From: Acidobacteria bacterium RIFCSPLOWO2_12_FULL_54_10
GTDB lineage: Bacteria; Acidobacteriota; Terriglobia; 2-12-FULL-54-10
Direction of reading: 5' to 3'
Assembly: GCA_001767075.1 (NCBI GenBank)
Contig: MEKX01000139.1
Span: forward strand, 1-39,838
Length of the DNA stretch: 39,838 bases
Shown: one piece after another, positions 11,050 to 13,377 of the stretch
How the letters are laid out: each line of letters starts with the position of its first letter
How positions within the stretch are numbered: position 1 is the stretch's first letter
The notes under the pieces: generated by a model
The model's input: the letters and a program-made list of their open reading frames with translations, nothing else
Databases searched by the model: none
What the model was told of the DNA's origin: nothing
Made by a program: the position numbers and the translations under genes

Positions 11050-12606
11050 ATGCACCGATCATCAAGTCATCCGACCGGTAAAGTGTATCTGGTCGGCGCT
11101 GGACCAGGCGATCCAGGTCTGCTGACGGTCAAAGGCAGACAGATTCTGCGCAGCGCGGATGTCGTTGTTTATGACTATCTCGCCAATCCTGAGCTACTCC
11201 TGGATGCCAAGCCGACCGCAGAAATCATTTATGTAGGCATGCACAAAGAAGAAAGGCTTTCTCAGGATCAAATCAACCGTCTTCTGGTCGAGCACGCTCA
11301 AGCGGGCAAGCAGGTTTGCCGTCTTAAAGGCGGCGACCCGTTTGTCTTTGGCCGCGGTGGAGAGGAGGCCGAGCACATCGCCGCTGCTGGCATTCCGATG
11401 GAAATTGTGCCTGGTGTCAGCGCTGGATACGCCGTGCCTGCTTATGCCGGAATCCCTCTAACGCACCGCCGCCTTTCCTCCAGCGTGTTGTTTATCACCG
11501 GCCATGAGGACCCGGAAAAAGAAAGTGCGTCCAATCTGAATTGGGAGGACATTTCACGAGGCGCCTCCACCTTGGTCTTCTTCATGGGCGTTAAAGCTCT
11601 GCCGCAGATCGCAGAAAACCTCATGCGAGTCGGGAAACCTGGTTCCACTCCGGTTGCTGTCATTCGCTGGGGCACCAGGGGCGAGCAACAAGTAGTCTTA
11701 GGTACCTTGGAAAACATCCAGAAGAAAGCTCAGCAAGCAGGCCTGAAACCGCCGGCCCTCACCGTCGTAGGCGATGTCGTTAATTTACGCGAGAAGCTTC
11801 GATGGTTTGAATCCCTGCCGCTTTTCGGCCAGCGGATATTGATCACCCGCCCACGGGAGCAAGCCGCAGCGCTGGCTGCGCCCTTGCGCGCGCTCGGTGC
11901 TGAAACCATCGAGTTGCCCACAATCGCGATTCAGGACCCGGACTCGTGGTCACCACTCGATGAAGCGATTTCCAGTATTCAGCAGTACCACTGGATTCTA
12001 TTTACCAGTTCCAACGGGGTGCGTAAATTCATGGATCGCATGAAAGCAGCCAACACCGATGTTCGGAAACTGAACGGCATCAAGATATGCGCCATCGGGC
12101 CGGCTACGGCGGATGAGTTAGCCAGATACCTTATTCAGGTCGATAAGGTTCCGCAAGAGTACCGCGCCGAAGGCATACTGGAGGCTTTCTCTGACGTGCC
12201 ATTAAACGGTGTCCGCATACTGATCCCCAGGGCTAAGGTTGCTCGCGACCTCCTGCCGGTTCAGTTGCGTCAGCGTGGCGCGGTAGTCGATGTAATCGAG
12301 GCTTACCGCTCCTTATTGCCTTCCGGCTCCCAGGAAAAAGCAGAGATCATTTTCACGCGCCACCGCCCCACGTTAATTATTTTCACCAGTTCTTCCACGG
12401 CGGAAAACCTCTTATCTCTCATCCCCTCGGAAAATATCTCAACGTGGCTCCGCGAGGTCAAAATAGCCTCTATTGGCCCGATTACCAGCCAGACGATTCG
12501 CAAGCATGGCCTGAAAGTGGATATTGAACCGAAGGATTTTACAATTCCTGCCTTAGTTGAGAGCATTGTCGCTGCTGTTCGGGGGGCATCCAAAGGCAGC
12601 GGTTGA
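11050..12606 (+). CDS. cobA-hemD: Uroporphyrinogen-III C-methyltransferase fused to uroporphyrinogen-III synthase
   Basis: KVYLVGAGPGDPGLLTVKG, CRLKGGDPFVFGRGGEEAE, PGVSAGYAVPAYAGIPLTHR (CobA/SUMT) followed by a HemD domain (GQRILITRPREQAAALAAPLRALGAE...). Confidence 0.95.
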   Translation: MHRSSSHPTGKVYLVGAGPGDPGLLTVKGRQILRSADVVVYDYLANPELLLDAKPTAEIIYVGMHKEERLSQDQINRLLVEHAQAGKQVCRLKGGDPFVFGRGGEEAEHIAAAGIPMEIVPGVSAGYAVPAYAGIPLTHRRLSSSVLFITGHEDPEKESASNLNWEDISRGASTLVFFMGVKALPQIAENLMRVGKPGSTPVAVIRWGTRGEQQVVLGTLENIQKKAQQAGLKPPALTVVGDVVNLREKLRWFESLPLFGQRILITRPREQAAALAAPLRALGAETIELPTIAIQDPDSWSPLDEAISSIQQYHWILFTSSNGVRKFMDRMKAANTDVRKLNGIKICAIGPATADELARYLIQVDKVPQEYRAEGILEAFSDVPLNGVRILIPRAKVARDLLPVQLRQRGAVVDVIEAYRSLLPSGSQEKAEIIFTRHRPTLIIFTSSSTAENLLSLIPSENISTWLREVKIASIGPITSQTIRKHGLKVDIEPKDFTIPALVESIVAAVRGASKGSG

Positions 12607-12978
12607 AAAGTGGCAGGAGTTCTGTCTTAAAATCTCATCCAAATTTTGCGAGAAAACCGACCTGGGCAGCACCAAGTCGCAGCCTGCTTTATAGGCTTCT
12701 CGCTCGCGTTCCTTCTGAACATGGGAGATATAGCCGATGATATGAACTTTCAATTTTTCGTTCGCCTTCAGGCTGCCGATTAACGCCAAGGGTTCAGGAT
12801 TCACATTATTCAGGTCCAGCAGTAATACAGCAAGCGCTCCTGCCGCTTTTTCCAAAAATTTGCTTTCGTTGTTTGCGAATACTACCTCGATGCCCACCCG
12901 CTTCGCGGCAGCAGCAATCTTTCCCGTGAAGATCAGGTCTTGGGTGATCGCGAAGAAACGCGGTGTCTGCTGATCCAA
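12553..12978 (-). CDS. Degenerate response-regulator receiver-like protein
   Basis: 141 aa with receiver-like pattern (VLLLDLNNVNPEPLALIGSLK; KVHIIGYISHVQKEREREAYKAGCDLVLPRSVF); TTG start, upstream GGAAGGA. Confidence 0.65.
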   Translation of the reverse strand: MDQQTPRFFAITQDLIFTGKIAAAAKRVGIEVVFANNESKFLEKAAGALAVLLLDLNNVNPEPLALIGSLKANEKLKVHIIGYISHVQKEREREAYKAGCDLVLPRSVFSQNLDEILRQNSCHFSTAAFGCPPNSSDNALN

Positions 12979-13003
12979 TTTTTGTTATCCTTCCCGTTTT
13001 ATT

Positions 13004-13061
13004 AAAAAAACGAGCCGGGAGGCCCTAATCAATTTGGTGGGTTTGATTAGGTTCCCGGCTC
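13004..13061 (-). terminator. Rho-independent terminator of the candidate leader RNA
   Basis: Minus strand GAGCCGGGA-A-CCTAATCAA-loop-TTGATTAGG-GCC-TCCCGGCTC-G-TTTTTTT; two 9-bp helices and a U7 tail. Confidence 0.85.
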
Positions 13062-13173
13062 TAAGGACGCGCCATCCTGGGTGGATGGCTTTGGTCAAGT
13101 CTAGTCAGTGTGTGTGGTTCCAACGGAGCCTTTTCGCCTCAAGTCGGTCTCACTTGGGGCAGGTACCGTTGTT
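13004..13173 (-). ncRNA. Candidate structured leader RNA / sRNA (about 170 nt) ending in an intrinsic terminator
   Basis: Minus-strand hairpins: CAACGG...CCGTTG enclosing CCCCAAGT/ACTTGAGG; GCCATCC-ACCCA-GGATGGC; terminator stem GAGCCGGGA...TCCCGGCTC plus T7. Extended -10 promoter lies just upstream. Confidence 0.65.
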
Positions 13174-13179
13174 TGATAA

Positions 13180-13208
13180 ACAGTAGCAAATTTTTATATG
13201 GTTGTAAA
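13180..13208 (-). promoter_or_regulatory. Sigma70-type extended -10 promoter
   Basis: Minus strand TTTACA (13208..13203), 17-nt spacer ending TGC, TACTGT (13185..13180). Confidence 0.65.
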
Positions 13209-13377
13209 GATTATTTTATTTTTTTCTACAATAATTGAAATTCATTGATTTTGCTCTCCTATCCGAGAAGAGCTTCAACCCAGTTTGTTTAGAAGGACAT
13301 GCCATTAAAAAATTGGGAAATCGATTTCGCCTATCCCTATGATAAATTGAATCTTCTTATTCAATAGGAGGAAAACC

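Follow-up and report, generated by a model that had tools for sequence, protein, structure and literature searches.

Is a structured RNA that is predicted to end just in front of a protein-coding gene a switch for this gene, or is it a gene in its own right? This question is raised by a locus on the minus strand of contig MEKX01000139.1 of Acidobacteria bacterium RIFCSPLOWO2_12_FULL_54_10, which we analysed in a stretch of 39,838 nucleotides (positions 1 to 39,838, the window). An earlier note, made from the sequence alone, had described a complete, unidentified structured RNA transcription unit upstream of a gene for a pseudo-receiver-like protein, and had considered both a transcription-terminating riboswitch or attenuator and a freestanding small RNA (sRNA) of about 170 nt. 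Our work favours the second possibility: most likely, the RNA is a regulatory sRNA that has not been described before, and not a riboswitch that serves the following gene. We consider it probable that the locus, with a promoter and a terminator of its own, is a freestanding sRNA gene of about 170 nt, and that base pairing in trans is the most likely mode of action of its product. As judged from the genome sequences, this gene represents a genuine, hitherto undescribed family of RNA genes, known in kind, that was found in a single acidobacterial family.

Results

The anatomy of the RNA gene, i. e. promoter, hairpins and terminator, was confirmed: all elements that the earlier note had named, from the promoter and the start near position 13173 to the bulged hairpin, the 7-bp hairpin, the U7 terminator and the TTG-initiated gene 25 nt further on, are present where it had placed them (Table 1). 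The predicted RNA folds with a z-score of -6.5 as compared to dinucleotide shuffles, none of 200 of which was equally stable, and the 5' hairpin of this copy has a z-score of -3.8. With simple consensus scanners, the locus does not rise above shuffled sequences, and the promoter scanner even misses the promoter. Rather, the RNA gene is singled out by conservation, since promoter, core and terminator are kept across the homologues. The RNA was also rightly called unidentified: no part of the window reached the gathering threshold of a covariance model for any of 4227 Rfam families, and when positions 12960-13260 were scanned under relaxed settings, only HgcG came up, with a meaningless E value of 6.1. 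Thus, we rejected a known RNA family.

Table 1. Features of the RNA locus in window coordinates.
Feature	Position	Strand	Details	Basis
Promoter	13180..13208	-	-35 TTTACA 13208-13203, 17-nt spacer, extended -10 TGC-TACTGT 13187-13180 (-10 hexamer 13185-13180)	sequence
Predicted RNA gene, ~170 nt	13004..13173	-	predicted start near 13173	start from sequence; homologues in 7/7 family genomes
5' bulged hairpin	13121..13171	-	closed by CAACGG (13171-13166) / CCGTTG (13126-13121)	
Near-invariant single-stranded stretch	13090..13119	-	CCACACACACTGACTAGACTTGACC + A run	alignment, identity, mostly unpaired in folding predictions
Hairpin H1	13071..13089	-	GCCATCC-ACCCA-GGATGGC, 7 bp, C-rich loop	fold and alignment
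Intrinsic terminator	13004..13061	-	hairpin 13061-13011, conserved loop CCCACC within 13042-13036, U7 13010-13004	
Pseudo-receiver-like gene	12553..12978	-	downstream neighbour outside the RNA gene, TTG start at 12978	

The earlier note had named a lack of conservation as the outcome that would speak against the unit; the opposite was clearly observed, as homologues are present in all seven genomes of the family that were analysed. When 61 genomes were searched at the DNA level, each of the six further members of the family among them had a strong match (identity of 83-86% over about 115-123 nt, E <= 5.4e-25), and no convincing match was obtained outside this family. Weak matches of query positions 81-99 in genus g12 are short, cover the non-conserved 5' hairpin and were judged to be due to chance. 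Two overlapping samples, one with 399 genomes from the class and one with 396 from the phylum, were then searched with a covariance model of the RNA (R1); in these roughly 790 genome searches with strict filters, which very weak relatives may escape, no member was detected outside the seven family genomes. In agreement with this narrow distribution, when 85,462 species genomes were searched for an exact 20-mer of the core, seven stretches contained it, all of them labelled Acidobacteria. The 20-mer is absent from viral contigs, and we therefore rejected a phage or viral origin. Finally, inspection by eye of the DNA upstream of pseudo-receiver homologues from other families, seven in all, revealed no similar RNA.

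Among the relatives, the length of the RNA varies from about 110 to 210 nt, and conservation is concentrated in its middle part: the segment that the earlier note had regarded as a linker and the hairpin H1, and not the 5' hairpin, are conserved best. Together they form a 54-nt core (CCACACAYACUGACUAGACUUGACC(A)AAAGCCAUCCrCCCCGGAUGGCGCGUCC) with a mean identity of 96% between the genomes. For comparison, identity is 34% in the 5' leader, 52% in the pseudo-receiver gene, 62% in the terminator region and 63% in the tautomerase gene nearby. Core and terminator are kept in all seven genomes, and a TTTACA or TTTACT -35 element, mostly behind an A/T-rich tract, is common to the six homologues that have upstream DNA on the contig. 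Promoter, core and terminator are conserved as a unit. The sequence of the 5' leader is not conserved, yet a hairpin is predicted directly before the core in six of six homologues with upstream DNA, with z-scores from -1.9 to -4.5 that are weakest in G003 and in the near-identical genomes G005 and G006. The H1 stem is nearly invariant (100% of cells paired). As to covariation of the stems, which the earlier note had proposed as a check, the outcome is mixed: there is one compensatory pair in H1, a change from C-G to U-A in a diverged paralogue of genome G004, and some compensatory changes in the variable stem of the terminator. The terminator loop CCCACC is found in seven of seven orthologues although the stem varies, a constancy that a plain terminator would not need. 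A small peptide encoded by the locus was rejected, as there is no conserved reading frame and indels of one nucleotide in the core and of non-triplet length in the terminator would disrupt it.

The RNA is present in more than one copy in some genomes. Genome G001 has two further copies on the contigs C125 and C91 at unrelated loci; both have almost no leader, and their terminator loop is CCUCC, which is complementary to GGAGG. In the diverged G004 paralogue (C167), a TTGACA-17-CAGAAT promoter is present together with H1 and a terminator, and a further promoter-like site precedes the next gene. Extra RNA copies in G001 and G004 are adjoined by two small proteins (L023:2531-2857 and L059:2010-2324, respectively) that seem to be exported, match no Pfam family and are alike by eye. 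Moreover, at G003:C3:29650-29760 (L057:1480-1590), a GC-rich hairpin is followed by ACATACTGACTAGATTTGACCAAAAACC, joined to a different 3' part. Here, the single-stranded element, with two mismatches in 22 positions, occurs outside the usual RNA.

The usual order of genes in most members of the family is dCTP deaminase, tautomerase and, diverging from the latter, the RNA, the pseudo-receiver gene and cobA-hemD. The distance between the terminator and the pseudo-receiver gene varies: it is about 25 nt in the source genome, G001a and G003, and reaches about 60-90 nt elsewhere. In G004, the RNA and the tautomerase side are kept and no pseudo-receiver homologue was found in the metagenome-assembled genome (MAG, 83% complete); the RNA is followed by a convergent, cation-efflux-like frame. 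Neither of the extra G001 copies has a substantial same-strand gene just downstream: at C125, a convergent PilZ gene is the next notable frame downstream, and near the C91 copy a weak frame of 67 amino acids is the sole one on the same strand. The pseudo-receiver-like protein itself has no Pfam family and only a marginal match to response regulators (E = 0.15), and it has homologues in 52 of the 61 genomes.

Discussion

Several predicted properties of the RNA are those expected of a trans-acting sRNA: it has its own promoter and an intrinsic terminator, it lacks a conserved reading frame, and it offers a conserved and accessible pairing region made up of the near-invariant single-stranded stretch and the C-rich loops. 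We suggest that the RNA would be transcribed from its own sigma-70-type promoter and end at its own intrinsic terminator. The invariable unpaired segment that lies between 5' hairpin and H1 would, like the C-rich loops in H1 and in the terminator, be exposed so that it can make contact with G-rich or complementary stretches in several mRNAs. Pairing would probably take place at ribosome binding sites, possibly with the help of Hfq. An Hfq protein is encoded in the source genome (PF17209, E = 9.8e-26); three matches in this genome lie above the Pfam cut-off for Hfq, one of them strong and two weak (G000:C91:28149-28331, C53:3892-4059 and C77:4152-4295). The genomes themselves show a conserved, gene-like unit; its transcription, its partners and the direction of its effect are what we infer.

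Some observations weigh against this interpretation. A pseudo-receiver homologue follows the RNA directly in five of the seven genomes, and with the G004 MAG only 83% complete, its absence there is not certain. The compensatory score of H1 was matched by 78 of 500 shuffles and is weak if taken alone; there is little covariation in this hairpin because it is too conserved. Finally, a search with 14-mers that allowed one mismatch revealed no long target that is conserved: it found the RNA copies and a few scattered matches, close to the level of the control.

With the pseudo-receiver gene next to it in five of seven genomes, the RNA could also be a cis-acting leader, i. e. a riboswitch or attenuator at which transcription stops ahead of this gene, with read-through set by a ligand, a protein or another RNA. 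The gap of about 25 nt in the source genome, G001a and G003 leaves little room for a separate promoter and also fits this possibility, which we nevertheless regard as unlikely. The downstream gene that would be regulated is present in five genomes but was not seen at the G004 locus, where a convergent gene lies downstream, nor next to either extra copy in G001. In addition, the distance to the gene is variable. Moreover, folding of the seven copies with the 3' arm of the terminator removed (a thermodynamic prediction for the ligand-free RNA) revealed no shared antiterminator pairing. The predicted promoter and terminator of its own, the G004 locus at which no pseudo-receiver homologue was found, the extra G001 copies without a substantial same-strand gene just downstream, the separate promoter-like site at the G004 paralogue and the lack of a shared antiterminator in these predictions are reasons why we prefer a freestanding sRNA. 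Of the two possibilities raised by the earlier note, the sRNA is thus favoured and the riboswitch or attenuator disfavoured, with a possible side role: since the pseudo-receiver gene starts so close to the terminator in three genomes, read-through may also supply this gene there.

Long antisense targets were rejected, as no long conserved complement was found in the genomes. Hence only short pairing would be feasible, or the partner may be a protein. Indeed, a stretch of about 25-30 nt that is almost invariant is longer than usual sRNA seeds, lacks a long complement elsewhere in the genomes and recurs at G003:C3 with a different 3' part, all of which could be explained if it bound a protein, as a sponge or scaffold, rather than mRNAs. 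However, no known protein motif was recognised in it, and C-rich loops are in keeping with pairing to mRNAs of the type described for LhrC (PMC4132741); we hold this explanation to be quite improbable. It is tempting to speculate that the single-stranded sequence is a module common to several RNAs (the orthologue, both additional copies of G001 and, with its unrelated 3' part, the copy at G003:C3) which have the same RNA or protein partner and form a new regulatory circuit, rather than an ordinary short-seed pairing region, within a lineage-specific core RNA; this would be a long shot. A trans-acting sRNA that pairs with mRNAs remains the preferred reading.

The C-rich loops invite a comparison with the 6C RNAs, in which the C runs are longer than in the acidobacterial RNA. 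The 6C/B11 sRNA of mycobacteria also has hairpins with C-rich loops, and for B11 two loops are redundant and a G-tract in the 5' untranslated region is the likely site (PMC10470900). Unlike in 6C/B11, the dominant feature here is the conserved single-stranded stretch, and the RNA has no Rfam match. The LhrC family of Listeria monocytogenes is similar in that there is more than one copy per genome (PMC4132741), and by analogy, blocking of the Shine-Dalgarno sequence is a likely mode of action here. The LhrC motif is CUCCC or UCCC (PMC4132741) whereas ACCCC, ACCCACC or CCUCC are found in the acidobacterial RNA; the organisms belong to different phyla, and we do not claim any relation in sequence. 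From the same phylum, Acido-1 (RF01686) and Acido-Lenti-1 (RF01687) are noncoding candidates that were judged not to be cis-regulatory (PMC2864571). Our RNA matches neither of the two Rfam models; the Solibacter-1 candidate carries no Rfam accession in that study (PMC2864571) and is outside this comparison.

According to one tally, only four distinct annotated sRNAs are listed for the phylum Acidobacteria (PMC9029176, Table 1). To this list, our work adds a well-delimited candidate with a promoter, a terminator and conserved predicted pairing surfaces, which has homologues in seven genomes as well as diverged copies, and it corrects the tempting reading as a riboswitch. Since the candidate is so clearly delimited, its targets can be predicted and its expression checked in a simple test without further preparation. 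If the G003:C3 copy is transcribed, the conserved stretch would be a module that is used by more than one RNA.
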